Shown here: piece after piece, positions 360 through 46,971 of the stretch
Layout: every line of letters begins with the position of its first letter
Position numbering within the stretch: position 1 is the first letter of the stretch
Assembly: GCF_026229185.1 (NCBI RefSeq)
Contig: NZ_JAGGJA010000011.1
Coordinates: 1-64,000 of the forward strand
Origin: Fodinibius salsisoli
Lineage (GTDB): Bacteria; Bacteroidota; Rhodothermia; Balneolales; Balneolaceae
Reading direction: 5' to 3'
DNA length: 64,000 nucleotides
The notes under the pieces: generated by a model
What the model was told of the DNA's origin: nothing
What the model saw: the letters and a program-made list of their open reading frames with translations, nothing else
The model's database searches: none
Translations under genes and position numbers: made by a program

Positions 360-758
360 TCAGGACTGGCGGCGAAATTCCGACGGCGTGACTCCTTTCC
401 GGCGTTTAAACGTCCGGCTGAAAGCGGAATGGCTGCTAAAACCGACGGCAAGAGCCACATGGAGTATGGGGTATTCTGTCGGTACTCTCTTTAACAGCCT
501 GCATGCAGCGGCTATACGATGTTTTATTATATACTGCTTAGGTGAAAGGCCAACATAATATTTAAAGATTGCAGAAAAATTACCCTCATTAATAATGCAC
601 TTTTGTTTCAGCTTTCGAACCGTCATCCCTGCATCAAACTGATGGCTATGAATACAGTTTACCACTCGCTGTACTTTTTGAGGCCAATTAGAATTTGGCT
701 CAGGTAGCTTATCAAAATAGATTGCCAGTATCTTTTCAACGTTATTAAACTCACTCAT
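360..758 (-). CDS. Short AraC-type DNA-binding protein
   Basis: 132 residues, almost only the AraC/XylS DNA-binding domain: a first helix-turn-helix around residues 45-70 (TVRKLKQKCIINEGNFSAIF), the linker GLSPKQYIIKHRI, then the second helix-turn-helix with VGFSSHSAFSRTFKRRKGVTP near the C-terminus. Full-length AraC regulators have about 280 residues, and the N-terminal ligand-binding part is absent here, so it may answer to a partner or act constitutively. A GAGGGA ribosome-binding site lies just before the ATG. It sits between the truncated C39-like gene and the beta-propeller array, all on the minus strand, so it is a reasonable candidate regulator of that locus (inference). Confidence 0.8.
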   Translation of the reverse strand: MSEFNNVEKILAIYFDKLPEPNSNWPQKVQRVVNCIHSHQFDAGMTVRKLKQKCIINEGNFSAIFKYYVGLSPKQYIIKHRIAAACRLLKRVPTEYPILHVALAVGFSSHSAFSRTFKRRKGVTPSEFRRQS

Positions 759-1080: not shown

Positions 1081-2220
1081 TTAAAATTCATACGCTCTTA
1101 TCTCCGCCTCTTCCGTTACTACAAAAATCCGCTGGCTGTTGAAATCAATATCGAAAATAGGCACCAGATTTACCTCCTCTGATACTAACCGGATCCTTTG
1201 GTTAAGTTCTCCTTCATTTGTAAACTCATGGATCCACAGATCGTTGGATGAATCCATCATTCCATTCTTCCCTACCACCAAATATAGATCCCCATCCTCA
1301 TTGGTTACTCCAGATAGGTAAGTATCAAGTCCTATTCTATTTTTACCACTCATATCAGCTGACACTTCATAAAAATGAGTGAATATAGAATCCATCTCCG
1401 CCGTATTGGGAACATCCTGCTCCCAAGTTTTTTCTCCGGATGTATGATATTTCACAATTTTCGGAAAGGCGGTGTAGATAAAATAAAACTCATTATGGTT
1501 GCTCCTATCATTGACCGGAAATACGTTGGGTCTGTAATAAGCCGGAACCTCGCCCTCGTCCACAGTCGCTTGGTATTGCTCGTAATCTAACACAAACGTA
1601 CTTCCGTCTGGGATATCGCCTATCTCAGCCTTCTGATTTCCTTGCCAGTCCACTAAGGTATACAATTTATTGAAATCTTCTCCCGGAGCGATAGCCGACA
1701 CCATTACCTGTCCGCTGGATGTTACAAAAGGTTGGTTAGCAATATCTTTTGGTCGCGGAATTAATGACTGCGGAGCCGGGGGCGGCATGGATTGGGAACC
1801 TTTCTGTCCATAATCCAGGGTAGCATCCAGCTCCCCGTCAAGTGTAAAGCTGGCAATACGAAATTGTAATTGATCAACTATATAAAGATAGTCATTATTA
1901 AGATAGAAGTTATTCACCAAGAGAAATTCTCCCGGTCCGCGACCCTGGCCACCAAATTCGCGTATAAACTGCCCGTTTTGATCCAATGCCAGCACCTGTT
2001 TCTTCTTTACATCATATACATAAAGAAGTGAATCGCCGTCATATCTTAGAATAGCCGGATTGATTAACGTACCCTCTTCATACGAAGCTATGGTATCATA
2101 GTCTTTAAGCTCAACTATTTCTATATCCGATGATGAATCCGGCATCCCCTGACAACCGAATATACCTATTAACATACATGCCACAGCGAAAATCATCTCC
2201 AGACGAATATTACTATACAT
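1081..2220 (-). CDS. 6-bladed beta-propeller lipoprotein, paralogue 1
   Basis: 379 residues. The N-terminus is a lipoprotein signal: hydrophobic residues 9-22 followed by lipobox I-F-G-C with Cys23. The motif GRGPGEF lies at residues 93-99 in the context FGGQGRGPGEF, diagnostic of the 6-bladed beta-propeller (NHL/TolB-like) lipoproteins common in Bacteroidota, Balneolota and Gemmatimonadota. Repeated strands of the type Y-I-V-D/F-D-x-N follow. It is the last (most 3') of eight related genes on this strand. Function unknown: such proteins are thought to be surface or periplasmic binding scaffolds, and no catalytic motif is visible. Downstream the gap leads to the AraC-type gene. Confidence 0.85.
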   Translation of the reverse strand: MYSNIRLEMIFAVACMLIGIFGCQGMPDSSSDIEIVELKDYDTIASYEEGTLINPAILRYDGDSLLYVYDVKKKQVLALDQNGQFIREFGGQGRGPGEFLLVNNFYLNNDYLYIVDQLQFRIASFTLDGELDATLDYGQKGSQSMPPPAPQSLIPRPKDIANQPFVTSSGQVMVSAIAPGEDFNKLYTLVDWQGNQKAEIGDIPDGSTFVLDYEQYQATVDEGEVPAYYRPNVFPVNDRSNHNEFYFIYTAFPKIVKYHTSGEKTWEQDVPNTAEMDSIFTHFYEVSADMSGKNRIGLDTYLSGVTNEDGDLYLVVGKNGMMDSSNDLWIHEFTNEGELNQRIRLVSEEVNLVPIFDIDFNSQRIFVVTEEAEIRAYEF

Positions 2221-2384
2221 ACATCCCTATTTAGATTAAAATCTTAATGTTGGCCATTTTTTAGCATATAATCAAAAAGTTCTTGCTTATATCACTCACC
2301 TAATTTAACGTGATGAGTGGTTAAGATTGGAGTTTACAGGGTGGTGAATACCCGATATCTAAGTTCTAAAGCGGATTGCAATAC

Positions 2385-2480
2385 GATGTCATCCCCCTAC
2401 TCACGGCAAAAGAACCGTGAGTTTTCTCCCTTCGAAGGGGGACAGGGGGATGTGCCACTCCTAAATACAGCCTAAACCTG
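2385..2480. repeat. Folded intergenic repeat, copy 1
   Basis: Outer stem CATCCCCCT (2390-2398) with AGGGGGATG (2444-2452) encloses two hairpins: CTCACGG/CCGTGAG (2400-2406 with 2415-2421) and CCC-TTCGAA-GGGG (2428-2440). Read together this is a three-way junction. The 3' flank (CCTAAATA-AGCC) is also shared with copy 2 at 5038-5163. The rest of the 2221-2568 gap shows no gene. Confidence 0.75.
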
Positions 2481-2568
2481 CACAATCGATCTTCTCGTTG
2501 TTTTTCTAACTGCTTTACACGTTTTACTTAATAAATACGAATTAATACTGCTTCTTTCTTCATATTAT

Positions 2569-3699
2569 CTACCAGTCAAACTTTAACAACCAAATATTAT
2601 TATTCCCGATGTTGCGTTCCCGTATATAAATATTCCCGTTGCTATCCATGGCTTCAGCATGCCAGCCAATAGTATTACCCCGTTTATGGGCTATCGGAAT
2701 TCTTTTTATTGGCACGTAGCCTAATGGCTGCATTTGTGTATTAAATAATCCTACCCCAAACACCCGCTCCTCACGGTTATTATCAAACTCACACTGCGTA
2801 AAATGATAGATCTTATCTTGATGCATAAGTAGTCCGCGTGACTGATTATGTACCACGAACTCAAGCGGTTTATTGAGCCTGATAGAGCTTAATGTCAGAT
2901 CAGGATAACGTCCCGAACTATTTTCTAACAGCGTATATGGATAGCGGTCCACATTCCCTTTGTAAGTATTTGTATTCTTCCATCGCCCATTTTCCTTTTC
3001 AAACTGATAGAGTTTTCCATTATAAAAATAGGGCGCATAAATAAATGTATAGTCATCCGTCATTAAAAAATGTCCGGGATAGAATTTTAGAACACCTTCC
3101 ACATCCTCAAGTCCGGGAATAAGTTGAGTAAGCTTTAGAAATGGCTTTCCTCCCGTTGAAAAATCCCTGTCATGCTCTCGAGCATAGGTGGTATTTGAAG
3201 GTGATTCAGGTCCTGTATAACTGCTATAAATGCCCAGATGATGGTCTTTCCCCAACGGTTTTAAAATAACAGGTGCGGCTACATTCAAAGAATGCGTTGT
3301 TACGGCCTTGCCCGTGGTCGAAAATACGTTCAGTCGCTGCAATTTTTGATCAAAAGCATAAATAGAATCACGATAGACAAAAAAGCCGCTGTTGCTGATG
3401 AACTCGCCCGGTCCGCGACCACGGTTCCCCACTATTCGCAGTGGACGTCCCTCTTCAGAAAAAACTTTAATATCCATTTGGGCTTCATCAAATACGTAGA
3501 CATTACCCGCCGAGTCGGTTTGGAGTTTATCAGGCTCGTAGATTATCATGCTATCTGCGAGGTTGTTATCCAAAAACTGCTCTTTCGTGATTTCCAGTCC
3601 ATCAGGTGGCCCGGGGAATGACTGTTTTTCTACTTGAGAATGGCATCCCCAGCAGAGCATAACGACTCCTAAAAAAGTTAAAAAACGGATATTTTTCAT
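2569..3699 (-). CDS. 6-bladed beta-propeller lipoprotein, paralogue 2
   Basis: 376 residues with a short SPII signal ending C-W-G-C (Cys19) and GRGPGEF at residues 94-100. The C-terminal part ends with a blade reading MDSNGNIYIRERNIG, a typical NHL-like strand. The start is the ATG before MKNIRFLTF. It lies 48 bases downstream of paralogue 3, close enough to share a transcript. As in the other copies no enzyme motif is seen; the expected site is the periplasmic face of the outer or inner membrane, anchored by the lipid. Confidence 0.85.
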   Translation of the reverse strand: MKNIRFLTFLGVVMLCWGCHSQVEKQSFPGPPDGLEITKEQFLDNNLADSMIIYEPDKLQTDSAGNVYVFDEAQMDIKVFSEEGRPLRIVGNRGRGPGEFISNSGFFVYRDSIYAFDQKLQRLNVFSTTGKAVTTHSLNVAAPVILKPLGKDHHLGIYSSYTGPESPSNTTYAREHDRDFSTGGKPFLKLTQLIPGLEDVEGVLKFYPGHFLMTDDYTFIYAPYFYNGKLYQFEKENGRWKNTNTYKGNVDRYPYTLLENSSGRYPDLTLSSIRLNKPLEFVVHNQSRGLLMHQDKIYHFTQCEFDNNREERVFGVGLFNTQMQPLGYVPIKRIPIAHKRGNTIGWHAEAMDSNGNIYIRERNIGNNNIWLLKFDW

Positions 3700-3747
3700 A
3701 CCCCCCCTGTTTATCTAATCTATATTCATAGAAAATTTACCACCCAT

Positions 3748-4887
3748 TTATTGCAACCCAAACCGGTAAATATGCTCTTCAAAGATGGATCCGTAATAGA
3801 CCCTGTTTTCATCCTGATCGATAATAAAATTTGAAATAGTAATGCCATAAGGCCGCTCTTCCCGAGTTTCGGGGTCACTATAGGTGAAAAACTTTGCCCA
3901 CTCTGCCCGATATTTATCTTCTTCACTATCATAACTCAAATGATAAAGCCTGCTGCCGTGGGAAAAATATAACGAGCCGTCCTCCGTTAGAGAAGGTCTC
4001 CCAATCAAGCCCTTCACTCCAATAGCCTCTGATGCCGTTCGTGCCGGCTTATCAACAGGCGTCACCGGCGGATTATCGGGCAAATCCTCTTCAGGGAATT
4101 TTACATAGATCACATGCTGTAGTTGATGATTCTTATCATATAGGAAGATATACGGCAGACCCAAATAAGAGACAGCTATATCCCCCATCCTGTTTGAATC
4201 TATACTGTAATTATTATAAGGGCCCGGTTGCATGCCCGGGGGAATCAGACGCGGGTGAAAGGTTGCCAAAGAGTCAAAAGGCGGCGTTGCCCTGTAAACC
4301 GAAATTAAATTATTCTTTGCACCGGTTGAAAGATACAGCAGGGAATCGGTCACGCTCATCGATTTATTGCCTGATAAGCCAGAGCCATGAATAACATGTT
4401 TAAAGGTGGTTTCCAGGTTAAAACGTTGGTCAAACATTTGTAGACGAGCATTTGTTATATCGCCGGCAAAAATAAAGTCTTTATTTTCCATTAGGCCACT
4501 TAAATCGCCAAACTCTCTTGGTCCCCGGCCTTCCCGCCCTATTTTACGGCTTATGACTCCCTCTTGGTCGATGGCCCAGATACAGCCTTGCTGCCCGTCG
4601 GCTACATATAAACTGTCGCCCACTTTGACCAGCCCCGCTACTCGTCCCAGCCGTCCTGATGGAGACAATAAATCTACGCTACTGTCGGCCATCACATGAT
4701 CTGGTTCGGCATAAAAAGTATCGACCGGGAGGTCTGCGAGGGGGACAATAGAGGCCGGAGCTGATCCCAACAGCGTATTTAAAGTTTCACTTTCTGTTTT
4801 CGGAATTTGCGGTCTCTCTGTTGAACAATTTGATAACAGCAACATACAAACGGATAGAAAACATAGAATGCGGTAATCCATAATCAT
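3748..4887 (-). CDS. 6-bladed beta-propeller lipoprotein, paralogue 3
   Basis: 379 residues; signal with lipobox L-S-N-C (Cys21). The family motif is altered to GRGPREF at 120-126 (Gly to Arg at the fifth position), and it sits about 26 residues later than in paralogues 1, 2 and 4 because the N-terminal region is longer. Two ATG codons (residues 1 and 3) are possible starts. The protein ends YGSIFEEHIYRFGLQ, a closing propeller strand. Its upstream gap holds copy 2 of the folded repeat. Confidence 0.85.
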   Translation of the reverse strand: MIMDYRILCFLSVCMLLLSNCSTERPQIPKTESETLNTLLGSAPASIVPLADLPVDTFYAEPDHVMADSSVDLLSPSGRLGRVAGLVKVGDSLYVADGQQGCIWAIDQEGVISRKIGREGRGPREFGDLSGLMENKDFIFAGDITNARLQMFDQRFNLETTFKHVIHGSGLSGNKSMSVTDSLLYLSTGAKNNLISVYRATPPFDSLATFHPRLIPPGMQPGPYNNYSIDSNRMGDIAVSYLGLPYIFLYDKNHQLQHVIYVKFPEEDLPDNPPVTPVDKPARTASEAIGVKGLIGRPSLTEDGSLYFSHGSRLYHLSYDSEEDKYRAEWAKFFTYSDPETREERPYGITISNFIIDQDENRVYYGSIFEEHIYRFGLQ

Positions 4888-5037
4888 ATATTTAGCTTTA
4901 TAGGTATCTTAATATGTTCAGCGGTTAGATTTAAATAGTTCTGTGCATGGTTTTTGATTTTAACCCCTATTTCCTGGTGGAATCTGGATGGAGTTGTTAC
5001 ATTTTGATTCTAAGTAATGAAATGGTGACATAGATAT

Positions 5038-5163
5038 AATGACATCTCCCACTCACGGAAAAAGCACCGTGAAGTTGCCCGCTACGTCGCTAAAGCTATG
5101 AAGCGTCGGCGACCTTCGAAGGGGGACAGGGGGATGTGCCCATTCCTAAATATAGCCACAACC
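5038..5163. repeat. Folded intergenic repeat, copy 2 with insertion
   Basis: Shares with copy 1 the order CATC-CCC, TCACGG/CCGTGA hairpin, CCTTCGAAGGGGGACAGGGG, GATGTGCC and the flank CCTAAATA-AGCC. Compared with copy 1 it carries about 32 extra bases (roughly 5078-5112), including CTACGTCGCTAAAGCTATG, placed between the two inner hairpins. Confidence 0.75.
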
Positions 5164-5190
5164 TCTGAAATCAAACTCCTTACTTGTTTA

Positions 5191-5223
5191 CCCGTCTGAC
5201 CGCAAGACCAGCGGTCGGACGGG
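5191..5223. terminator. Strong hairpin downstream of the CxxC gene
   Basis: CCCGTCTGACCGC (5191-5203) pairs with GCGGTCGGACGGG (5211-5223): 13 base pairs including one G-U, with a 7-base loop. It follows the stop at 5246 on the minus strand. No T-run follows, so it may be a mobile palindrome rather than a true intrinsic terminator. Confidence 0.45.
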
Positions 5224-5245
5224 GCAGTTTTGCCAAAGCTTAAAA

Positions 5246-5704
5246 CTACTGTTCAACACATTGCAATTCTTCTTTAAATAAAGATAGCGGAGCTGGCAAA
5301 GGATAAACCTCACTCGTTTTATCCCTTGACCTTATCCTTGCTGAAACCGGAGCATTAAAACATCCATCACATCCTTTTCGATAGCTGAGTGCTCCCCACA
5401 AATCCCATTCCTTAATATTACTAAGGGTTTGAGGTTCAATCTCTTTTTCCCCAAGCCAGGAATCATCTTCCAAGACTAATTGTATCGGGATATTATTTTC
5501 CCGCGCATAATCGTACCATTTCATCAACGATTCTTGGCACTGTGTGCATTTCTCATCAAAAACGCCCTCGGTAAAATAAAAGGTTACCTCCTCATCTTTA
5601 CATGAACCAATATCTGATAATGCATTTCTTATGATGTCTGCCCCATCCATCGTATAAACAGTATCTCCATCCACGGCCAGAAGCTCACCATTAGCTACTC
5701 GCAA
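5246..5704 (-). CDS. Unknown CxxC protein in the propeller locus; start doubtful
   Basis: The open frame gives about 150 residues with C-T-Q-C near residue 56-59 and later C-D-G-C, spaced after a strand (EEVTFYFTEGVF) as in thioredoxin-like folds. This would suit a periplasmic redox or metal-binding role, but no family could be recognised. The frame has no good start: the first usable codon is TTG at 5704, while an in-frame ATG eight codons upstream (5728) is followed by MRYRES and then two consecutive stops, TGA TAG. The first internal ATG is residue 19 (5650). It may be a real gene starting at TTG or ATG-5650, or a gene broken near its 5' end. It follows paralogue 4 by 46 bases. Confidence 0.45.
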   Translation of the reverse strand: MRVANGELLAVDGDTVYTMDGADIIRNALSDIGSCKDEEVTFYFTEGVFDEKCTQCQESLMKWYDYARENNIPIQLVLEDDSWLGEKEIEPQTLSNIKEWDLWGALSYRKGCDGCFNAPVSARIRSRDKTSEVYPLPAPLSLFKEELQCVEQ

Positions 5705-5750
5705 CTATCAGCTCTCACGATAACGCATGGGCCATGCCAAGATCTCAACA

Positions 5751-6833
5751 TCACTCCATACGCAGAACCCTGAGTAATGGCGTCTCCTCCCTGTCAAATA
5801 GATATACGGAATTCCCATTGACCTCATGGATTATCTTATTAGGTGGCTGTATAGAATCAAGAACGGAATAATAGAGCGGCTCACCTTCTCGGCTGAATTT
5901 CTTAGCGATAAAGTCTAACCCGTCATCAGAGCTTCTTTCCTGAATTGTAAAGTGCATAAAGGTATCCTGACCGTTCCAAAATAGACCACTCGAGCGAGCA
6001 TGAAATTGTGCGGCGAAGCGTCCCTCCGGTAACCTAAAAGGAGCATCCACTCGTTCTGCCTGGCTATACGAACTGAAGGTAACTGGATTATCATGCCGAC
6101 TATACCCCTTGATTGTATCAGCTACTTGCCACTGCTGATTATTTTTTAACACATACTTGTATAAACTGCCTGTATAAATACTGGGCGAAAAAAGTATCAC
6201 ATCTTGTGCGAGAACAAGTATGCTTCCCGGCTGGTATCGGACCCACATCTCTTCTAACCTGTTTCCGGTACTGAGAATGCTCGAAACAGGACCCAGGCTT
6301 GTTTCAATACTGCTAAAGCTTGAATCAACAATGTGTATCAGCTTCTTTTCGTGATATCCCAAAAGAATATATCGTCCATCAGGCATTTGTTTTATTTTTC
6401 TAACACCTGTCAAAGGTAAATTATGCATAGAAAGAAATTTTCCCTCCAGAGAAAACACACCCACCCTATTCTGCTCTGGATCTAAAACAACCAACTGCTT
6501 CCGTTGATTGATAAAAAGTGTGCTAATGTCTTGAAATTCTCCCGGGCCTGATCCCTCTTTTCCAATATATCGCTCAAAAGAGCCCTCTTCGTCATAAACT
6601 CGAACCCGGAATTCTCTGGCATCCGCTACATACATCCTGTTCTTTTGATCCGTAACGATATCCACGATGAAGCTAAAAATCTCGTGGTCCTTTACATCCA
6701 GGCTATCCGTGCCAATACTCAGCTCCTGCGTTACCGTAATATCTTCCTCAGAAACCGAATGGTCTTCAGTACATTGGATAGTCATGAACGTGATAATGAA
6801 AATGATAAATGTCCTGGTAGTTGTCTGCATCAT
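5751..6833 (-). CDS. 6-bladed beta-propeller lipoprotein, paralogue 4
   Basis: 360 residues; signal ends M-T-I-Q-C (Cys21), a slightly unusual lipobox with Gln before Cys. Family motif GSGPGEF at residues 94-100. The following blade VVLDPEQNRVGVFSLEG is a clear propeller repeat unit. It is 47 bases downstream of paralogue 5 and 46 bases upstream of the CxxC frame, suggesting one transcript of these genes. Confidence 0.85.
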   Translation of the reverse strand: MMQTTTRTFIIFIITFMTIQCTEDHSVSEEDITVTQELSIGTDSLDVKDHEIFSFIVDIVTDQKNRMYVADAREFRVRVYDEEGSFERYIGKEGSGPGEFQDISTLFINQRKQLVVLDPEQNRVGVFSLEGKFLSMHNLPLTGVRKIKQMPDGRYILLGYHEKKLIHIVDSSFSSIETSLGPVSSILSTGNRLEEMWVRYQPGSILVLAQDVILFSPSIYTGSLYKYVLKNNQQWQVADTIKGYSRHDNPVTFSSYSQAERVDAPFRLPEGRFAAQFHARSSGLFWNGQDTFMHFTIQERSSDDGLDFIAKKFSREGEPLYYSVLDSIQPPNKIIHEVNGNSVYLFDREETPLLRVLRME

Positions 6834-6880
6834 ATCCTTTTTTTAAAATCACCTTATATTGTACATAGCCAGGCTCATCT

Positions 6881-8020
6881 CTAATCCATTGCAATATTAT
6901 ACCGTATAATTGTCGGGAGTTCTTCCGGGATTTGTGATATCCCATAGGCTTTGCCCTTTTGTACGGCATATAATTTGACATGGGTGGGCAGCGCAAACTC
7001 CCATCCCGGTTTTCCATCTTCGCTAAAGACAATCCATCTTTGTTGCTGTTTGCCCGGATCCACCAATTGTATCCAAGCCCGGTTGGCACCATCAAGCAAA
7101 ATATGCTGAAAAGCCGGCCAATGAGTGGGACTTCCAACTTTCTGGACTACTTTACTGAATAGCTCTCCCTTTTCATCTGATATACTATCGATATCCGCTT
7201 GGTCAAGGAATGGTCCCTGAAAGGATCCTGTTAAGGTATCAGTAAGTCTTCCAGCATGATCATATCCACGCAACAGTAAGCTATCGCTGGTACCGATATA
7301 AAGGTGCCCTTGTCTATCGATCGCTGTCTCATAATCCGGATAAAATGGAGCTGTAAAAACGGACATGCTTGCTCCATCCATATGAATGAGCTTCTGATCC
7401 GTCGGGAATAAGGTATCGAATTGCAGGAAATCCTTTTCTACGAACTTCCCGGATTTGTCGATCACTGAAACCGTCGTCTTACGGGTAGCTCCGGTCTCTT
7501 TCGGGTCTTTAAGATGAGGCTTCACATATAAAACCATAATATCACCATTCGGCCGGGGCAGTATCTCTTTGGGGGATCCAAGGTCAGCACCATTAACTTT
7601 ACTTTTGGGAACATCGATAGTGCCAGCCAGCACTTGGTCTGCCAGGCTAAACATCGTAATTCGCCAGTTTCTTCTATCCAGGGCAAATAGCGTATCCGAC
7701 TGAATTTTTATTTGAGAATCCAGCCAGTTAAACTCTCCCGGCCCCTCTCCCTCCCGTCCAAGAGAATCTATATATTCACCTTCAGGTGAAAACAGATGGA
7801 TTTTCATCAGTCGACTGTCGGCAGCATAAATATCACCTCTTGCATCAACGGCGAGACCGGAAAAATCACCGGCCAACGCTTCTGCAGAGTTTGCCGAGAT
7901 CTGGAGCTCTTCTGTTAATTTTATCTGTTCAAGACTATTATTGGGCGACTGACTTTTGGAAGCACATCCTACAGCCAACATTAAGACAAGAACCAAGGTA
8001 ACTAATGAATTATAACTCAC
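6881..8020 (-). CDS. 6-bladed beta-propeller lipoprotein, paralogue 5
   Basis: 379 residues; textbook lipobox L-A-V-G-C (Cys19) followed by ASKSQ. Motif GEGPGEF at 91-97, preceded by DSLGRE. A phrase of the same type appears in paralogue 6 (DSIGREGKGPGEF), so 5 and 6 look like a close pair. The blades carry typical A-x-D-x-R/G-x-(I/L)-Y-x-(A/G) strands. No catalytic motif is visible. Confidence 0.85.
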   Translation of the reverse strand: MSYNSLVTLVLVLMLAVGCASKSQSPNNSLEQIKLTEELQISANSAEALAGDFSGLAVDARGDIYAADSRLMKIHLFSPEGEYIDSLGREGEGPGEFNWLDSQIKIQSDTLFALDRRNWRITMFSLADQVLAGTIDVPKSKVNGADLGSPKEILPRPNGDIMVLYVKPHLKDPKETGATRKTTVSVIDKSGKFVEKDFLQFDTLFPTDQKLIHMDGASMSVFTAPFYPDYETAIDRQGHLYIGTSDSLLLRGYDHAGRLTDTLTGSFQGPFLDQADIDSISDEKGELFSKVVQKVGSPTHWPAFQHILLDGANRAWIQLVDPGKQQQRWIVFSEDGKPGWEFALPTHVKLYAVQKGKAYGISQIPEELPTIIRYNIAMD

Positions 8021-8260
8021 TTTCCGAAAATTTATATTATAAAGAATACTGATGAATAGCTCTTAACTTGCATTATAAAAATGAAGTACCAGACTATATG
8101 TCGGTGATAGCAGCTCTATTATAGATCCGAAGAAAGTCATAGCAAGTAAGCCTATTCATTATGGGAATAACCTCAGACAGTATACTAATAATAAAGTATT
8201 ACTACAATAGTATTTAAGAGCGCCTCATGGATCAATTGCTCTATTAGTCCTTGAATGGTA

Positions 8261-9466
8261 TCACATTTTAATATCATAGCGAACAATCTCTTCCAGTCCG
8301 GTCTCTTTATCCCTCTCGCGGGTATAGAGCTTCCCACTTTTTATCACTTCGATCCGTTTTTCCCGCGGCCATTCGAACCGGGTCAGCAACTCTCCATTTT
8401 CAGCATCCAGCATCCACCACTTATATATCTTCGGGTCATCGGTAAAGACAGAAACCCATAGACGATGCTCATCATCCGCTTTTATGGTGTTGAAGGCCGG
8501 CCAGGTTTCGGGGAGGGTATCATTTCGTATGGCTCGGATGATGTTTTTGCCGGGATCTTGATACTGGGCAAGTGCATCTTCCACATTCAGTGGAATTTCA
8601 GGATTTGGATGATAAAATGCTCGCTGATACTCTCCTTCTTCATTACAAGTCTTGAACAGCAGATCTTCTGTCCACCCGTGTATCAGCTCTTGCCTCGAAT
8701 AGGCGAATCGAGAACTCCGTTTATAGGGTACCCTAAACATTACAGTCATTTCCTCTTGATCTGTAAGTGTTTGTCCTGTCCACACAAAAGAGAGGAGATC
8801 ATGCTTCAGATATTTTTTCTTTGTTGGATCATAAAGAGATACTTCATAAGTACGTCCTTCCACATTATTCATCGGGCCAACTCCTTCATCACCAAAAAAT
8901 ACCAAATAATTGCCGTCTGAACGGACATAGAAATCAATCGGTTTGTAAGACAGCTTTTTTTTACGGGTCCAATCTAACCAAGGCGGGGATTGATGCATCT
9001 CTTCGCTAATGGAAAGTTTCATATCATGGATATGCTTCATTGTTTGGAGATCAAATACCGATATCTTTTGAGAGGCATAGCCCAATACATGCAGAGTGTC
9101 GTCAGCAACTCTGATCCTCCAAATCATCTGGAACTCTCCCGGCCCTTTGCCTTCCCGACCGATACTATCAAGGTAGGAACCATCGGCATTATATACATAG
9201 ATGGTTTTCGCCTGAAAATCGGGTATGTATACCCGTCCCCGGCTATCTACCACAACATTTCCCGAAATTATTCCGCGTGTTACTTCCTCTGTGTCCTCAT
9301 AAGTAACCTCCTCGTCAAGTACGATCTGCCGGCTTGGTTCTGCATTCGGAGTATGAATGGTGACGTTTTCCAACGATTTGACAGTCTCAGGAACCTCAAC
9401 CCCCGGTTTGGAGGCACAGCCCAATATTAGTAAAAGCACAACATATTCAATCCATTTTTTTGCCAT
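8261..9466 (-). CDS. 6-bladed beta-propeller lipoprotein, paralogue 6
   Basis: 401 residues, the longest copy. Lipobox L-I-L-G-C (Cys17) followed by ASKPG, almost the same mature N-terminus as paralogue 5. Motif GKGPGEF at 106-112. The start ATG encodes MAKKWIEYV. It lies 84 bases downstream of the RND adaptor gene stop and may be read through from it. The 240-base gap to paralogue 5 shows no feature. Confidence 0.85.
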   Translation of the reverse strand: MAKKWIEYVVLLLILGCASKPGVEVPETVKSLENVTIHTPNAEPSRQIVLDEEVTYEDTEEVTRGIISGNVVVDSRGRVYIPDFQAKTIYVYNADGSYLDSIGREGKGPGEFQMIWRIRVADDTLHVLGYASQKISVFDLQTMKHIHDMKLSISEEMHQSPPWLDWTRKKKLSYKPIDFYVRSDGNYLVFFGDEGVGPMNNVEGRTYEVSLYDPTKKKYLKHDLLSFVWTGQTLTDQEEMTVMFRVPYKRSSRFAYSRQELIHGWTEDLLFKTCNEEGEYQRAFYHPNPEIPLNVEDALAQYQDPGKNIIRAIRNDTLPETWPAFNTIKADDEHRLWVSVFTDDPKIYKWWMLDAENGELLTRFEWPREKRIEVIKSGKLYTRERDKETGLEEIVRYDIKM

Positions 9467-9550
9467 TCTATTTTTCCTGACCCAAAGTATCTGTTCCTTT
9501 TGATTATGATTAAAACCGGCTGACCCGATAACTCACTACTCAAAACTCAT

Positions 9551-10690
9551 TCAATTTGAGGCAGATACTTCTTCCTGCAATTCGAAAACAGGCTCCACCA
9601 CCTGCAGGTGACTGAGGGCAAAATGGCGATCGGTGGCAATGGTATCGCCGGGAGCAATATTCTCGTGATTAATAATTGCCCACTCACCGTTTTGGGCTTC
9701 GGGCTCCACATAGACCCATTCGACCTCGTCATTCTCGGGATTCAATTTAAAAAGCAAGGTACGTCCGCCATCACGGGATAATATAGCTGAACGTGGCACC
9801 CGAGCCTTGCCACCCTCTTGCAACGTTTGGATACGCCCCTCTACCGTCATCCCCGGATACAGTAGCTGCTTGCTGTTATCAGCACTCACAATGACCGTAC
9901 CCGTCTTGGTATCAGCATTAACTACCGGCTGGATCGCCTCCACCTGCCCCTGCAGCTGTTGTCCACCCGGAGCGGTGAGCTGCACGCTCATACCACTGTT
10001 TATATTACCCAACTCTGATTCCAGCACATCAAAACGAAGACGCACCGTGCGGTCATCGACCAGTTCTCCCACCGTTGTTCCAGCAGCGACATAAGTCCCC
10101 GATGCTAATCGTTTTTGGGTGGAAAGTACCCCTGAAAAAGGAGCGGTCATCACCGTATAGGATAGATCCAACCGGGCGCGTTCCAGCTTTAATTTAGCAT
10201 TGGCCAGTCCGGAATAAATGCGTACCAAGCTATCATCTCTTGCAATAGCCTGCTCGCCACTGCTCAAACTTTCCATTACACCCTGCGATCGATTCTCGAT
10301 CTTGTACTCGCTGAGGGCTTGCTTGTAATTATTCTGCGCTTCATCAACGGCCATGGCATATTCCCGCTGATCAAAAGTTAGCAGCTCCTGCCCTTTCTGT
10401 ACCCGCTTTCCTTCGGTAATATACGACTGCCCCACGTATCCGCTGATCTTCGGCTTCAGCTCTACGGACTGGTTGGCTTCTACTACGCCTTGACTTTCGA
10501 TATACTGGTAGATAGGCTCATCATCGGCCACGGCAAAAATCACTTCAGGACGTACTTCCGCCGATTCTTGCTCTTCTTCGGAAAGGGGGTTACCATCTTC
10601 TGGTTCGCTGCTCTGGCAGGCGCTTAAAAATAATCCCACACAGCATAAAAGAACGGCTACTTGATGAGATAGCGACAAATATTTAGTCAT
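9551..10690 (-). CDS. RND efflux periplasmic adaptor (MFP) lipoprotein
   Basis: 379 residues. Signal with lipobox L-S-A-C (Cys25), so membrane-anchored in the periplasm. The order is that of the AcrA/MexA family: barrel-sandwich entry (GVVEANQSVELKPKISGYV), biotinyl-lipoyl-like half motifs, an alpha-helical hairpin around residues 120-175, then LSYTVMTAPFSGVLS as the returning lipoyl strand, and beta-barrel and membrane-proximal domains. It would bridge an RND permease to an outer-membrane TolC-type channel. The only permease nearby is at 14516-17566, about 3.8 kb away, and no TolC homologue lies in the window. A fragment of a second copy exists at 12065-12120. Confidence 0.9.
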   Translation of the reverse strand: MTKYLSLSHQVAVLLCCVGLFLSACQSSEPEDGNPLSEEEQESAEVRPEVIFAVADDEPIYQYIESQGVVEANQSVELKPKISGYVGQSYITEGKRVQKGQELLTFDQREYAMAVDEAQNNYKQALSEYKIENRSQGVMESLSSGEQAIARDDSLVRIYSGLANAKLKLERARLDLSYTVMTAPFSGVLSTQKRLASGTYVAAGTTVGELVDDRTVRLRFDVLESELGNINSGMSVQLTAPGGQQLQGQVEAIQPVVNADTKTGTVIVSADNSKQLLYPGMTVEGRIQTLQEGGKARVPRSAILSRDGGRTLLFKLNPENDEVEWVYVEPEAQNGEWAIINHENIAPGDTIATDRHFALSHLQVVEPVFELQEEVSASN

Positions 10691-10855
10691 GAAAAATACA
10701 TTAGGTTTTACCTCAATAGTATTTGTAATGTATTGAGAAGGATCGGATTAGGCAAATGTGAAGCATACCTAGATTACAATCCTGTTCCCCCTGCAACTCC
10801 AACTGCTGCCAGTTTTCTACCTGTTGGACTCGCGTCTGTGGCTCAGCGGGAAAAA

Positions 10856-10939
10856 CTATCGGCGGACCACCAGCCCGATAATCACAAGGGCGCAAAGTAC
10901 CAGTACTCCAGTAAAAGAAAGCGACAGAAGATCTTTAGT
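10856..10939 (-). other. Orphan 26-27 residue membrane-helix frame
   Basis: The minus strand reads KDLLSLSFTGVLVLCALV then IIGLVVRR and a TAG stop, after an in-frame TAA. It looks like one transmembrane helix closed by two arginines. No ATG precedes it. It may be the tail of a lost membrane protein beside the adaptor gene, a tiny membrane peptide with a non-ATG start, or chance. The remaining part of the 10691-10954 gap shows nothing. Confidence 0.25.
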
Positions 10940-10954
10940 TTACATCACTGTTTA

Positions 10955-12040
10955 TTAACTGTTGGAATTAACCTTATAACGCACTACTGACTGAACTCCC
11001 TCCTCATCCTCTCGGATGCCATAAGTGTAACCGTCGCTCACTTCTTTGAGCTCCACGGACTTCGGAAGCGTTGTTTGATCTACCAGATCGCCTTCTTGAT
11101 CATAAATACGCAATGAATAATGTTGCCGGTCTTTCGTATTGACGGCGACCCAGATTCTACTCTTGTCATCAATAACAAACCAGTCGTACACTGGAAAGTT
11201 ACTCCCATCCAATTTGTTTATAATAGAATCTATCTCCCTCGAGTTATACCCCAATTTTTTTGATTCCACTATCAAATCATTCTTATTTACGGCCTCCCTT
11301 TTCACATTTTTATGCACAATCTTTTTTATAGAATCCTTATCCAGCGAATATTTGAATATCTCCAATTTGTTAGTATCCCCATAATAAAACGATTGACGTG
11401 AATCATCAATTTGGAAGATTGGCTGCTTTCCAAAAGGTTTGGGACCTACGCCAAAACTTTGCCCCCTCGAAGACACCAAATATTCTTTAGCTGGTTTAAC
11501 CATTATAAAATCCTGAATAATATTCCCCTCACCGTTTAGCAAAGCCACAACAACTTCCTTTTTTTCGTTCAAGTTCCTGTTTGAATAGGCGGTAGAATAT
11601 ACTCCCAAAAACCGTGTGGAATCAAGAGCAATAAGTTGGTCGGGAGTACCGTGATGTGTTTTTTTAAGAGTGATAGTATCCAGGATTTCTGTTTCATTTC
11701 TAACATCAAAAACAGAAATTCTAAGTAACTGATTATCAAAGATATAAAGGGTATTTCCAATAATAGAGAAACTCCTGGGTATTTGAAGCTCTCCGGGTCC
11801 CCTTCCTTTTTTTCCTATCTTTTTTTCCAGCGTTCCTGTAGGCAAAAATTGTTTTATATCTCCACCTATAATATCAGACACAAATATATTCCCGTATTGA
11901 TCTATACCAAGGTCATGAATGTATCCCACTTCCTGAGACTCTATTTGCAGGTCTTTTTCCAGACTTATTTTCTGAGATAAACCAATATTGGTAATCAACA
12001 ATAACTGAATGGATATTATAAATAAAATCTTATTGCGCAT
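10955..12040 (-). CDS. 6-bladed beta-propeller protein, paralogue 7 (non-lipidated)
   Basis: 361 residues. The signal peptide ends N-I-G-L-S-Q with no cysteine, so this copy is probably cleaved by signal peptidase I and free in the periplasm or secreted, unlike paralogues 1-6. The motif is GRGPGEL at 79-85. It is rich in Lys, Asn and Ile and visibly more AT-rich than its neighbours, which hints at separate acquisition. Its 5' end abuts the relic of a second RND adaptor gene. Confidence 0.8.
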   Translation of the reverse strand: MRNKILFIISIQLLLITNIGLSQKISLEKDLQIESQEVGYIHDLGIDQYGNIFVSDIIGGDIKQFLPTGTLEKKIGKKGRGPGELQIPRSFSIIGNTLYIFDNQLLRISVFDVRNETEILDTITLKKTHHGTPDQLIALDSTRFLGVYSTAYSNRNLNEKKEVVVALLNGEGNIIQDFIMVKPAKEYLVSSRGQSFGVGPKPFGKQPIFQIDDSRQSFYYGDTNKLEIFKYSLDKDSIKKIVHKNVKREAVNKNDLIVESKKLGYNSREIDSIINKLDGSNFPVYDWFVIDDKSRIWVAVNTKDRQHYSLRIYDQEGDLVDQTTLPKSVELKEVSDGYTYGIREDEEGVQSVVRYKVNSNS

Positions 12041-12064
12041 TGCGATGAAGGTTTATTTATGGTT

Positions 12065-12120
12065 TTTATATAATTGATAGATAGGTCCATCAACAGCCAT
12101 GGCGAAATAATAACTTCGGA
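12065..12120 (-). pseudogene. Relic of a second RND adaptor gene
   Basis: In one minus-strand frame 12065-12106 reads FAMAVDGPIYQLY, matching FAVADDEPIYQYI of the intact adaptor. The preceding EVI also matches, after a two-base shift, and the nucleotide sequences align across about 50 bases with the adaptor at about 10503-10555. The fragment stops 25 bases before paralogue 7. The remaining 12041-12328 gap shows no gene. Confidence 0.65.
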
Positions 12121-12328
12121 ACATATTAGAACATGCCCTCTAGTCTCTGTGAGGGGTATTAAAATTCAACTCCTGCCAACCTGATCTTCTCTATAAATTT
12201 AGATTTTATAATTTCTGTTAATTAAGATTATATCTGAAGTACACTGTTCCTGTCATGACTTAGAATTGATTTCCATATCTATTTTGTTAAATCTGCCAAA
12301 TTTATCCACCTCCCACCTCTTTTAGAGT

Positions 12329-13333
12329 TTATTCTGCTGCTACAAATTTATATTTAAAAATGGCATTTTCTTCTTCGGAGTAGACAAACAGGTATTCATC
12401 ATTGGCCGTTATATCTTCGGCTTTAACACCCAAATCATGGGTAGCAACAAATTGCTCCTCTTTGAAATCATATTCGAGCAACTGATCTAATTCATAATCC
12501 CGATTCTCACTTTTACCTTTGGCAAGTAATAATATTCGGTTTGGCGAACCGGGAATATAGGCTACATCTTCATTAAGGATATCCACCTTTTCGGGAGGAT
12601 ACATGATTCTGGCCCCTTCCTCATTCGTCATTGCTTCCCTCTCTTTTATTTCCGATTCATCAAAAGTTATTTTTTTCACCATCTTCTTTGATGATAAATT
12701 ATATACGTAAATCCGGGGATAGTACTTTATAAAGTGTATTAAATTAATTCCCTGGATAGTCATCCAGCCCTCTTTATGAAACGGACCCGGAAATTCCTCT
12801 GTAACCTTTGTGGTCCCCATTGTAAGAGGAGTATATGTCTCCTCATCATCCTGAAGATAGAAAACAGCCTTCTTGTTTAATCCATTCATTAAGATTCGAT
12901 ATTTCTCATTACTGACAATTCTTAAGGGTAGTAACGAAGATGGGGTGCGTAGATCCTCTAAAAAATTCCCTGATGCTGTAAGACGGATCAGTTTAACATT
13001 TATATTATCCACGAGATGGATAAATTTGCCGGAAATAGACAGCCCCGATATCTGTTGGTACTCATTGGGCCCCCTCCCTTCCTTCAAGTGAACCTCTTTC
13101 ATATCCTTGTTGGCTATATCATAAATAAACACGGTCCCTGTATACCCTTCATACCAAACCAAAAAATCTTGGGATGTATCGAAAAAATAATAAGCATAAT
13201 CTTGTTCTAAGGCCACATTAGGGACCTTATGGACAAGGTCCAAGGTTACACTTGCATTTGGCTGAGCGTGTAAATAGCCGTTAATGGATGCCCAAAGAGC
13301 AATAATAAACCAGAACTGATAAAGTAAACGCAT
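12329..13333 (-). CDS. 6-bladed beta-propeller protein, paralogue 8 (divergent)
   Basis: 334 residues, the shortest and most divergent copy. Signal peptide ends G-Y-L-H-A-Q with no cysteine, suggesting signal peptidase I cleavage. The family motif is degenerate, GRGPNEY at 86-92. Later strands (YVYNLSSKKMVKKITF, EDITANDEYLFVYSEEENA) keep the propeller pattern. A hairpin lies 13 bases upstream of the ATG, so translation or transcription may be controlled. Assignment rests on the motif, size and array position. Confidence 0.75.
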   Translation of the reverse strand: MRLLYQFWFIIALWASINGYLHAQPNASVTLDLVHKVPNVALEQDYAYYFFDTSQDFLVWYEGYTGTVFIYDIANKDMKEVHLKEGRGPNEYQQISGLSISGKFIHLVDNINVKLIRLTASGNFLEDLRTPSSLLPLRIVSNEKYRILMNGLNKKAVFYLQDDEETYTPLTMGTTKVTEEFPGPFHKEGWMTIQGINLIHFIKYYPRIYVYNLSSKKMVKKITFDESEIKEREAMTNEEGARIMYPPEKVDILNEDVAYIPGSPNRILLLAKGKSENRDYELDQLLEYDFKEEQFVATHDLGVKAEDITANDEYLFVYSEEENAIFKYKFVAAE

Positions 13334-13684: not shown

Positions 13685-14104
13685 TTACTCTACAATACTT
13701 ATACCACTCAAAAATTCACCGGGACTATAAACGGGAAGATCACTGCTTTTAAAATCTCGTTGATTCCTGGTAAGAATAGCATCTAAGTTGGCATGGATAG
13801 CTGACTGATAAAGTACCGCATCTTGATAATCCTTAAAACCGCTTGTTAAGGCGTCTTCCAACACAACACGATTAATATTTGAAACATAGAAAATTTTAAG
13901 CACACTCTTGATATGCTTTTCTGCTTTCTCACGAGAAAGGGCTTTATTCAACAAATAATAAATCGTTGTGACGGTAGTACCACCAATCCATCCTTCTATT
14001 TTACCTTTTTCTGTTAGTCCCAAGACTTGGGATGATGACTCAAAGAAAGGGCGCCGTTCCAAGAAAACATCTAATAATACATTGGTATCAAAAAGAACTT
14101 TCAT
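13685..14104 (-). CDS. PIN-domain ribonuclease toxin (VapC-like)
   Basis: 139 residues of the PIN fold. The acidic metal-site residues expected of this family are seen: Asp6 in LFDTNVLLD, Asp95 in KDYQDAVL and Asp117 in LTRNQRDF. VapC-type toxins cleave RNA, commonly tRNA or rRNA, until neutralised by their antitoxin. The ATG overlaps the stop of the antitoxin gene by four bases (14101-14104), the usual coupled arrangement. It lies in the middle of the split RND/propeller region. Confidence 0.85.
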   Translation of the reverse strand: MKVLFDTNVLLDVFLERRPFFESSSQVLGLTEKGKIEGWIGGTTVTTIYYLLNKALSREKAEKHIKSVLKIFYVSNINRVVLEDALTSGFKDYQDAVLYQSAIHANLDAILTRNQRDFKSSDLPVYSPGEFLSGISIVE

Positions 14105-14346
14105 TTGAGGTGCTTGTCTTCCAGGTACGATTTGTAATCTTGCTCTTGGATATCTGTGTTCTTTAAAATACCCGTTAAAGAAGAGGTAATAGGAGGTAAT
14201 TTTTTAGAGGGAGAGGTATCTTCTATTTCGATCAGGGCAAAATAATCGGCAACCATTTGCGATACAGACGTACCTTTTTGCTTGGCGTGCTTTTTAGCCC
14301 GTTTAATCAATGAGTCGTCTAAACGGAGCGTTAATTTATTTTTCAT
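14101..14346 (-). CDS. Ribbon-helix-helix antitoxin (DUF6364-like)
   Basis: 81 residues. N-terminal ribbon-helix-helix DNA-binding part (KLTLRLDDSLIKRAKKHAKQ, then GTSVSQMVADYFALIE) followed by a polar tail that would wrap the toxin. It precedes and overlaps the PIN toxin gene by four bases. Such antitoxins bind both the toxin and their own promoter, so autoregulation is likely. Family name is tentative; the toxin-antitoxin role is well supported by the gene pair. Confidence 0.8.
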   Translation of the reverse strand: MKNKLTLRLDDSLIKRAKKHAKQKGTSVSQMVADYFALIEIEDTSPSKKLPPITSSLTGILKNTDIQEQDYKSYLEDKHLK

Positions 14347-14515: not shown

Positions 14516-17500
14516 CTAATTCTCTATTCTCCTCCCTTCTACCCACTGAAAAATAATGGGTGCCAGGTAGAGGGTCAGCAGCGTGCTGGTCACCATCCCG
14601 CCCATCAGTGCCAGGGCCAGTGACTGACGAAAGGCATAACCGTCGCCAAAGGGCAACAGCATGGGGATGAGTCCAAATATCGTGGTAAGACTGGTCATCA
14701 CTACCGGACGAAACCGGTGCAACCCGGCCTGGGTTACTGCCCGGTGCAAGTCGCCCGTGTCGGCCAGATAGCGGCGCATGAAATCCACTTTTAAAATAGA
14801 GTCATTAACGGCAATACCGGTTAAAATGAGGATACCCATAAACGAAAGGGCATTCAGACTGATGCCGGTAATCCACAGAATGAGCACCGACCCTACCCAG
14901 GCGAAAGGCACCGCGGCCAAAATAATGAGCGGGTGCCGCAGGCTTTCGAACTGCACCGACAGGATAATATAAATAATGACCACGCTGATGAGCAGCAGTA
15001 ATCCCATGTCCGACAGCAACGAAGCGATACTCAAGACCGATCCCCCGACCTTTACCTCCGTGCCGGTCTCGCGGGCGAAGCCAGTAAGTGCTTTCCGGAT
15101 ATCCGCTCCGTGCCACCACCAGTCGGTGAAGCTGATATCCGCCATATAACTCAGCACCGGGGTCTGGTTGACGCGCTCCAGCTGCTCCGGTTCGGAGGCC
15201 CGATCAATAGAAACGAGCTTTGTAAGTGGTATTTTTTGCCCTTTCAAATCCAGGGTAATGTCCTCGGGAGTAAAGATCTGCCGGTCATATCCAACGAGCC
15301 GGACGGGCACATTCTCATCCTGCCGGTTCCAGTCGGTGATCCAGCTGCCGCGGGTCAGCGACTCCAAATATTGAATTACTTCCTGTTCGCTGAGGCCCAG
15401 CTGTAGTAAGTTTTTGGCCTTAAACCGGAGCTGATACGTATCCAGCTCCTGCTCATACTGCTTGGTGAGGGCCATCTCCAGTCCTAACGATTGCAGGCTT
15501 TCCTGCAGGCGACCTGACAGCTGCTCGCTCTGTTGCCTGTTTTCATTAACCAGGCGAAAAAGAATGGGAGGCTCACTGGAAGACGGTAATACATTTAAAG
15601 CGTTTTCGGCAGCAAGAGGCTGAGCAGTCCACCCCGGCTGCTGCTCAAAATAATCCAGTATCTCTTCTCGCGCCCGGTCCGCCATGGCGTAGCCATCCAC
15701 GGGGATACTCATTGTAAACTTGTTCATTCCCTCTTCCGACAGATTCGACAGGTTGGTCTGATCGGTATAGCCCCCCAGTATCCGGATGGGACGTCCCTCT
15801 TCTTTAACACTTTTTAGCTGTCCAAGAAGACTTCGGGCGGCCTGCTGCGTGGCGTGCAGCGAGGTATTACCGGGCAATCGTACCTGGTAACGCAGTTGTT
15901 GGGGCTTTGTCTCGGGCAGTACATTTTTATGAACCAACATAAATATATAGACAGCCCCGATTAGCAGTACCAACATGCTTCCCAAAAACAGCCCTTTGTG
16001 GCGGAGTGCCCATTGGAGGCTTCGTTCGTAGCGGTCGCGCATCCGGTCGAAAAAACGATTAAAGCCAAAGACGGACGATCCCTCCTCTCCCTTTTTCTGA
16101 AATTGGGTGACCAGTACGGGCAGGATCAACAGGGCTACCCCCAGCGAGACCAGCAGGCTAATAGAGAGCGTCCACGCCTGGTCCTGGAAAAAAGCACCTT
16201 CAAATCCACCCAAAAACACCAGCGGCAAGAAAACAGAAATAGTCGTTAAGGTGGAGGCCGTCACGGCCAGCGCAATCTCCCGCGTGCCCAAGTCAGCTGC
16301 TTCCAAAATAGAGGTCGACTCCGAACGGTGCCGGTTGATATTCTCCAGCACAATAATGGCGTTGTCTACGAGCAGGCCGATGCCGAGGGTCAGTCCGCTG
16401 AGCGAAACGATATTTAGCTGAATATCGGAGACAAACATCACAAAGAAGGTCAGGAAGATGCTCACCGGAATCGCCACCCCGATAGTGAAGGGCGTCCGCC
16501 AGTTATCCAAAAACAGGAAGAGCACAATAAAGGCCAGCACGGCGCCGTACAGCAGCGTCTGCAGCAGATTATTGATGGCATTGCGGATAAAGCTGGCATT
16601 TTCCTGGAGCACGGTGATGCCGATGTTGGGATTTTGTCCGCGTAGTTCCTCCAGCAACGGCTCCAGGGTATCATAGGCTTCGACAGTGTTGGCCCCGTAC
16701 TCTTTTTTGACAAGGACGCTCAGCACTTCATGTTCATCCACCAGCGAAAAAGAGGTCGGATCCGATTCACCCAGCTGCACTTCGGCCACGTCGTTCAGCT
16801 TGAGCACGCGTCCCGTGCCCAGCGTTTTCAAAGGCACCGCCTCTACATCTTCAATCGACTGAATACGACTCTGGATCTTCAGCGAGTATCGGTACCAGCC
16901 GTCACGAAGCTCACCGGTGGCCGTAAACAGGTTGGCCTGCGACACAAGGTTCTCTACTTCGCTAAGCGACACGCCAAAACGGTTCAATGCCTTGGGACGA
17001 TACCTAATTTGTACTTCCGGCTCGACGGCTCCAACCAGCACCGTCTGGGCGATGCCATCGGCCTGCTCTAAGCGCCGGGAAAGTACCTGCTCGGCCCATC
17101 GCTTAAGATCGAGACGGGTCCGGAAGTCGGGATTGCTCTCATCAAGACTGGTGATACCCAGTACGGCGATGGGTTCGTCGGAAGCGGTATTTTGCACCAG
17201 CTGGGGACGCTCGGCCTGCTCGGGCAAGGTAAAGCGAATTTGATCCAGCTTCTCACGGACATTCAGGAAGGACAAATCCATATTTTGTCCCCACTTAAAA
17301 CGCAGGGATATAATACTCTGCCCCTGACGTGCAAAGCCGTGTACATCTTCCAGGCCTTTTACGGTACTTAATACGGCTTCCATCGGTTCGTTAATACGCT
17401 GCTCGATCTCCCGGGGGGCGGCCCCACTCCAGTCCGTACGCACCAGCAAAGCCGGTGAATCGACCTCCGGCAGCAGGCTCACCGAGAGCTCACCCAAGGC

Positions 17501-25156: not shown

Positions 25157-25157
25157 C

Positions 25158-46938: not shown

Positions 46939-46971
46939 ATTTCGGTGTTCAGCTATAACTATTCTCAATTC

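Follow-up and report, generated by a model that had tools for sequence, protein, structure and literature searches.

A probable island of exported six-bladed propellers around an RND pump in Fodinibius salsisoli, and small Cys-rich peptide genes beside its relatives

The first 64,000 nucleotides of contig NZ_JAGGJA010000011.1 of Fodinibius salsisoli (the window; contig C2 of the genome, from base 1) carry eight genes, p1 to p8, for exported beta-propeller proteins that all belong to the DUF5128/DUF4221 propellers of Bacteroidota (PF17170). These genes are best explained as that half of an island which the window shows, the island being one of exported six-bladed propellers grouped around a resistance-nodulation-division (RND) pump that has one adaptor and two permeases. 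Some propellers of this family are preceded, about 60 bp upstream, by a gene for a small exported-looking Cys-rich peptide, an arrangement that we report here as new. Because the family is encoded in many relatives beside such peptides and an efflux pump, our data suggest that the propellers recognise small, variable, Cys-rich secreted peptides, perhaps for self-protection. The array of the window is itself best read as a largely orphan reservoir of propellers. In the open-licence part of PubMed Central, we found no assigned function for PF17170 propellers and no account of a link to Cys-rich peptides and RND pumps. The retrieved text of PMC10352776 does not mention 'propeller', and that of PMC12204202 and PMC10434189 names such propellers in passing only.

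Results

In the loci of relatives, short exported-looking Cys-rich open reading frames (ORFs) lie directly ahead of propellers. We scored as a peptide gene any ORF of 50-130 aa on the strand of the propeller that had a hydrophobic N-terminus with at least three Cys beyond it and ended between 60 bp inside and 200 bp before the propeller. Because this rule was fixed after examples had been seen in some of the scored loci, we also scored 20 stretches from outside the order (L168-L187, 14 genomes, chosen for PF17170 matches). Within the order (81 sources), 231 matches included 215 of at least 200 aa, and 212 were used once those better explained as adaptor, permease or C39 had been dropped. An upstream peptide gene was found for 30/212 propellers and for 6/405 control genes (odds ratio 11, p 6.5e-10); one of the six peptide-bearing controls (L098 15914) may be an unrecognised propeller. 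Outside the order, the same rule found peptides at 20/51 propellers and 1/74 controls (odds ratio 47, p 1.6e-8). All counts in this work are uncorrected for relatedness, with the near-duplicates L104 and L109 both retained. The gap from peptide to propeller has a median of 61.5 bp (30 pairs), and a peptide-propeller pair occurs in 20 of the 58 loci of the RND adaptor described below.

Scanned against Pfam and NCBIfam, 20 of these peptides gave no match over any cut-off. The NVEALA peptides (PF14055) were ruled out as their identity, with 0 of 38 genomes over the cut-off and 0 of 20 peptides matching at E 1. Two of the 20 peptides (G006, G009) have a double-glycine (GG)-type leader and match bacteriocin-leader models below cut-off (TIGR04149 and NF047798; 12.7 vs 25 bits and 17.9 vs 23.5 bits); these families were not listed for the other 18. 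Separately, the array of G006 at L017 564-10531, which combines two GG-leader peptides with a C39 ABC exporter, a VKOR-thioredoxin, a glycosyltransferase-like gene (by eye) and a LanC-like gene, is a probable cassette for a ribosomally synthesised and post-translationally modified peptide.

The mature part of the peptide co-varies with the propeller beside it. Across 49 pairs (50 before removal of one duplicate), mature-peptide similarity correlates with propeller similarity at r 0.74 (largest of 2000 permutations, 0.30) and leader similarity at r 0.34 (largest of 2000 permutations, 0.17), the leader value being lowered by the low complexity of the leaders. Nearest neighbours agree with those of the propeller in 19/49 pairs for the mature part and in 6/49 for the leader. 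The split between the two parts was mechanical and counted part of the L179 leader as mature (for that pair, mature 0.45 and propeller 0.04). Peptide-linked propellers also cluster in a tree of the family, with 20 label changes as against a mean of 28.2 and a lowest value of 25 in 200 shuffles.

Two loci outside the order point to exchange behind a constant leader. At L179, four tandem units have leader DNA that is 94-98% identical over 127-150 bp, and in one pair 92% identical over 241 bp, upstream bases included. This identity stops near the leader/mature border, as judged by eye; beyond it, the mature parts are unrelated and the propellers 23-26% identical. The strict peptide rule captures two of these four units; of the others, one has a start that was read too far in, and one has a propeller recognised only as an ORF of 205 aa, lying some 500 bp downstream. 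One pair among the three units of L184 behaves likewise (174 nt at 87%). These units indicate that the leader is separable from the mature part and the propeller, which change together. Given the co-variation of the mature part with the propeller and the L179 swaps behind a near-identical leader, we conclude with good confidence that a peptide and its linked propeller are probably cognate.

The propellers are also tied to an RND pump. Among 12 genomes of the genus, F. salsisoli included, an adaptor orthologue (a match at E 1e-40 or better) occurs in F. salsisoli, G004, G006, G007, G009 and G011, all with at least 10 propeller matches, and is absent from G001, G002, G003, G005 and G008 (0 propeller matches) and from G010 (one weak match). 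Across 128 genomes of the order, again including F. salsisoli and scoring at most 15 candidates per genome, PF17170 is found in 87 and the adaptor in 58. A propeller occurs in 56/58 adaptor-positive and 31/70 adaptor-negative genomes, and at least five propellers in 45/58 and 7/70, respectively (Fisher 1.6e-15, relatedness uncorrected). A propeller of at least 200 aa lies within 10 kb at 44 of the 58 adaptor loci, and at 33 of the 36 that span at least 15 kb. The initial annotation had raised both a varying number of copies and a nearby RND pair; propeller matches do vary from 0 to 27 per genome in the genus, and the proximity holds.

Where permeases were seen on both sides of the adaptor (38 loci), the three genes are contiguous in 36, and propellers intervene in the other two (G007, L098). 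Where one side alone was seen, propellers likewise separate adaptor and permease in F. salsisoli, G004 and G009, and in G006 the adaptor and RND1 lie on neighbouring stretches with propellers between. The pump of the window is of the HAE type by both its ACR_tran permease and its RND_mfp adaptor. One adaptor flanked by two permeases is the build of MdtABC-type RND systems, from which the window differs in that RND1 falls below the model cut-offs (MdtB, 349.4 vs 1584 bits; MdtC, 399.8 vs 1774 bits). RND pumps draw their substrates from the periplasm.

The eight propellers had been described at first as an array of paralogues, which should then be closest to each other. Instead, among the stretches compared, 15 of the 16 propellers of the genome match another genome best (p5 is the exception), and a tree of 197 propellers shows 16 changes of the own-genome label over the 16 leaves that carry it (mean of shuffles, 15.6). 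The array is therefore not one of local duplication. p3 is about 73% identical to relatives in G006 and G011, p6 74% to one in G006, and p7 and p8 67% and 65% to ones in G011; p1, p2 and p5 have no match above 30% in the stretches compared. Between the eight, significant local matches are 21-44% identical and often confined to the N-terminal half, and some pairs with p1 are not significant. These identities, together with the best matches in other genomes and the tree, rule out a recent tandem duplication of eight propellers. Ligand recognition, proposed along with the paralogous array, nevertheless stands, because inheritance links propellers to the mature part of small exported-looking peptides. 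Some local duplication is seen in G006, where 8 of 26 propeller best matches lie within the genome. At L035 2645-5871, two tandem peptide-propeller pairs with related mature peptides and related propellers may reflect a recent duplication. In viral contigs, no relative of p5 was confirmed (seven pattern matches, 0 by tblastn).

The window and its continuation

All eight minus-strand ORFs (Table 1), of 334-401 aa, pass the Pfam cut-off for PF17170 (DUF5128, '6-bladed beta-propeller') at E 2.6e-18 to 8.9e-6. The description that led us to them was accurate as to the six lipoboxes and the plain signal-like N-termini of p1 and p2, and as to the RND adaptor, the CxxC protein, the PIN/DUF6364 toxin-antitoxin-like pair and the intergenic repeats, which are two copies of a REP (repetitive extragenic palindromic)-like palindrome. 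Its common GxGPGEF motif is strict in five of the eight (those starting at 1081, 2569, 5751, 6881 and 8261) and variant in three. The interval it gave, 1081-13333, does hold the eight propellers; the array does not end at 1081, and the RND1 permease lies outside.

Table 1. Features of the propeller array in the window
Feature	Coordinates	Strand	Description
IS-like element end, at contig end	1..126		similar inverted ends at C2:1 and C33:1, by eye
VKOR/thioredoxin-type gene, first 36 residues	127..234	-	69% over residues 1-36 to L017 4584
Short AraC-type regulator	360..758	-	HTH_18 E 8.8e-22
Propeller p8	1081..2220	-	379 aa, lipobox; PF17170 E 2e-12
REP-like palindrome, copy 1	2390..2452		between p8 and p7
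Propeller p7	2569..3699	-	376 aa, lipobox; PF17170 E 8.4e-12
Propeller p6	3748..4887	-	379 aa, lipobox, GPREF motif; PF17170 E 8.8e-6
REP-like palindrome, copy 2	5043..5136		between p6 and CxxC gene
CxxC protein	5246..5704	-	thioredoxin-like by eye only
Propeller p5	5751..6833	-	360 aa, lipobox; PF17170 E 2.6e-18
Propeller p4	6881..8020	-	379 aa, lipobox, GTG start; PF17170 E 8e-8
Propeller p3	8261..9466	-	401 aa, lipobox; PF17170 E 7e-14
RND periplasmic adaptor (MFP)	9551..10690	-	TIGR01730 E 6e-45, over cut-off
DsbA-like gene remnant	10778..10945	-	48% over 56 aa to L021 19278, E 1e-10; broken frames
Propeller p2	10955..12040	-	361 aa, plain signal-like N-terminus, GPGEL motif; PF17170 E 8.9e-6
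Propeller p1	12329..13333	-	334 aa, plain signal-like N-terminus, GPNEY motif; PF17170 E 2.7e-8
PIN toxin-like + DUF6364 antitoxin-like pair	13685..14346	-	PF13470 E 1.4e-24, PF19891 E 4e-24
RND permease RND1	14516..17566	-	ACR_tran PF00873 E 1.5e-199

By the rule above, 0 of the 8 window propellers has an upstream peptide. Inspection by eye of the translated gaps ahead of p1, p2, p3, p4, p6 and p8 revealed none either, and the intergenic gaps upstream of p5 and p7 measure 47 and 48 bases. The best match of p2 is a peptide-linked propeller of G009 (L021 18157, 29%), and the DsbA-like remnant after p2 mirrors the gene order behind that match. p5 is followed by the CxxC gene, and a CxxC gene also follows the peptide-linked propeller of L025; the tree, as printed, lists the leaf of p1 close to those of peptide-linked propellers.

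The array very probably runs on into contig C33 across an insertion sequence (IS)-like element, which we take to be IS3-like. Along its minus strand, the window closes with residues 1-36 of a VKOR-type gene, followed by an IS-like end; C33 opens with another IS-like end, and the VKOR-type gene resumes there at residue 36. The split gene, the similar inverted ends and a 3-bp duplication (AGT, by eye) flanking the insertion led us to take C2 and C33 as adjoining, so that the full order given here is a putative one over two contigs rather than a joined sequence. On C2 it runs RND1, toxin-antitoxin-like pair, p1, p2, DsbA remnant, adaptor, p3, p4, p5, CxxC, p6, p7, p8, AraC and broken VKOR. A DsbA-like gene comes next; C33 then holds one propeller, the C39 exporter gene shortened to roughly half, three more propellers, a propeller piece of 101 aa, AraC, the gene for a Cys-rich peptide, a fifth propeller, a MauE-like gene and RND2. 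The whole array would thus comprise 13 propellers of at least 334 aa and one 101-aa piece between two RND permeases. Its Cys-rich peptide (L028 10816-11067) lies 54 bp ahead of the fifth C33 propeller. Elsewhere in the genome, contig C11 (L031 6094-11819) carries a further propeller next to opposite-strand genes that by eye encode a different RND permease and adaptor, and contig C9 (L030 5784-7262) has an isolated propeller immediately preceded by a small Cys-x-x-Cys gene in the same orientation.

Genes lying between the core genes of these loci were tallied by Pfam family. Among 108 inner genes, we counted 19 with HTH_18, 7 Peptidase_S26, 5 MauE, 4 Peptidase_C39 and 3 VKOR, and at most one of each among 108 flanking genes, a bound set by their absence from the 25 commonest of 149 flanking families, the last of which have one member. 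Inner genes were taken from the strand of the array (116 found, 8 dropped by eye as transposase, housekeeping-type or likely chance ORFs), and flanking controls from either strand. A short HTH_18-type regulator like that of the window recurs in the arrays of relatives. The small CxxC proteins of the loci are called thioredoxin-like by eye only, since none exceeds a Pfam cut-off (that of the window has no Pfam match at E 0.01) and the single-sequence fold of the window copy failed, with a predicted local distance difference test (pLDDT) score of 32.6; a thioredoxin fold is thus not borne out.

An AlphaFold model of p3 (23 sequences; pLDDT 87.1, pTM 0.85), the one propeller of the eight modelled, shows six blades by our reading, the last of them completed by the N-terminal strand; strands were assigned by hand. 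In this model, the conserved motif lies in the loop joining blades 1 and 2. The nearest solved folds are propellers, namely 3s9j (DUF4221, Z 20.7), Brat NHL (Z 19.5) and 4raa (BF0058, Z 18.1). Within the p3 subfamily (59 sequences), variability is higher in top loops than in bottom loops (2.71 vs 2.09 bits, p 8e-5) and, by strand, is 2.71 bits in the inner strand A, 2.08 in B, 2.07 in C and 2.42 in D; BC loops, A strands and DA loops are again the most variable among 66 closer pairs. The proposal that variable residues cluster on one face is supported to the extent that top loops and inner strands lead in the one subfamily modelled. The test is a weak one, because the AB and CD turns of the opposite face are tight and constrained anyway, the strands were hand-assigned and there was no control propeller. 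The modelled pattern fits a variable binding face.

The two REP-like palindromes have in common a 28-nt arm that did not occur in 100 shuffles; their 24-nt core has three looser copies elsewhere in the genome. A Y1_Tnp protein (PF01797) at 46372-46968 scores 70.6 of the 80 bits needed for a REP-associated tyrosine transposase, which is under the cut-off; it is a candidate for the enzyme that moves the two palindromes (2390 and 5043). About 2 kb past RND1, three large ORFs at 19696-28397 resemble RecD, RecB and RecC by eye.

Discussion

The first proposal for these genes, a recognition system linked to an RND pump, was right in outline; its picture of duplication was wrong, and the informative peptide partner lies outside the window. 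The account that we favour, with a little less than even confidence, is that the pairs consist of a bacteriocin-like peptide and a propeller that confers immunity, together with RND efflux. The peptides would be exported by Sec and oxidised in the periplasm, where VKOR, DsbA-like and MauE proteins, encoded by neighbouring genes, may act, and would attack competing bacteria as bacteriocins do. Binding by the cognate propeller, whether periplasmic or at the outer membrane, would neutralise each peptide, and the RND pump would remove or export it. In F. salsisoli, one Cys-rich peptide-propeller pair is left on C33, most other propellers being kept without a peptide gene; such retained orphans would suit protection against the peptides of neighbours. 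We favour this account because pairs are swapped, because propellers outnumber peptides, because propellers and pump persist although the VKOR gene of the array is interrupted by the IS-like element and its C39 exporter gene is shortened to about half, and because there is a precedent in BfUbb of B. fragilis. This small antibacterial protein has a signal peptidase I signal and is encoded in a strain-variable region adjoining divergent beta-propeller genes, a region that in other strains holds a toxin-antitoxin pair instead (PMC5705921, from the text retrieved). The likeness lies in a small exported antibacterial protein with adjoining propellers; the difference is that BfUbb is a ubiquitin homologue (PMC5705921).

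Several observations weigh against immunity to bacteriocin-like peptides. By the rule, 182 of the 212 propellers of the order, all eight of the window included, have no peptide. A lipobox is found in 10/30 peptide-linked and 127/167 other propellers, counted by a text pattern loosened once to catch p7 and p8 (9/30 and 102/167 by the stricter pattern); as the linked ones mostly lack it, linked and orphan propellers may differ in role. Part of the co-variation reflects common descent, given that the leader correlation too lies beyond all permutations. An intact C39 protein (open frame 736 aa) is encoded on contig C6, and the DsbA-like and MauE-like genes of the array are not visibly broken; therefore, maturation need not be lost. 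The bacteriocin-like activity of the peptides and their signal-like N-termini are both predictions from sequence, and AraC-type regulators with small peptides would equally suit signalling. The authors of the BfUbb study, in the text retrieved, suggest that an immunity protein is unnecessary (PMC5705921).

Signalling is the core of one alternative, in which the Cys-rich peptides would be secreted signals, exported by the RND pump, and the propellers periplasmic or outer-membrane receptors or sinks feeding the AraC-type regulators. Such regulators are the commonest neighbours (HTH_18 in 19/108 inner genes), and specificity pairs that swap as a unit, as at L179 and L184, would also suit signal-receptor groups. 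We nevertheless judge it unlikely, as no sensor kinase appears in the 25 listed of 68 inner-gene families and up to 27 propeller matches per genome with few peptides are hard to explain. The propeller might also be a chaperone or carrier of the peptide during oxidation, signal cleavage and hand-over to a pump that draws on the periplasm. MauE, VKOR, DsbA-like and signal peptidase S26 genes in the same loci would agree with such a role in maturation or export, as would the scarcity of lipoproteins among peptide-linked propellers; this role leaves the many propellers without a peptide unexplained, as well as their persistence in an array with broken VKOR and C39 genes, and we give it a similarly low probability. 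The most ordinary explanation, that peptide cassettes, an RND pump and unrelated envelope proteins binding glycans, metals or cofactors occupy one genomic hot spot, draws on the breadth of PF17170, present in 53 of 148 genomes drawn from the phylum, and on the adaptor-negative genomes of the order that have a propeller (31/70) or at least five (7/70). Even upstream spacing, co-variation with the mature peptide and swaps behind a constant leader would not be expected of hitch-hikers, and we regard this explanation as improbable.

The proposed pairs have counterparts among known systems. In lantibiotic immunity as generally understood, a surface lipoprotein (LanI) and a pump (LanFEG) protect the cell, much as proposed here; the present loci differ in having an RND rather than an ABC pump, a propeller rather than LanI, and mostly a signal-like N-terminus rather than a double-glycine leader. 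Conotoxins are familiar for a build like that of the proposed system, with exchangeable Cys-rich peptides behind a constant leader. Polymorphic toxin systems (PMC3482391) have a constant N-terminal export part, a variable C-terminal part and a directly downstream partner that changes with it, as seen at L179 and in one L184 pair, both outside the order, and not in the window. Over all loci scored, the propeller directly follows a peptide in 30/212 cases in the order and 20/51 outside it, and in none of the eight of the window; the peptides here are of about 57-120 aa, not large toxins. In a wider form, which is possible but rather doubtful at present, a Bacteroidota-wide system would join a constant leader, exchangeable Cys-rich antibacterial peptides and a dedicated propeller for the immunity to each, with an RND pump of its own, with two permeases, in some of the phylum and the window as a nearly orphan reservoir of bystander immunity.

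PF17170 is common in Bacteroidota, and if its members are cognate partners of hypervariable peptides, the family can be tested pair by pair. Small genes without a family match would then gain a role, and a system of antagonism or signalling in a major phylum would become visible. The beta-propeller would join the folds used for immunity, among which the retrieved text of a 2012 review states that it had not been found (PMC3482391). The orphan array of F. salsisoli would then exemplify how bystanders retain protection or perception while making no peptide themselves.

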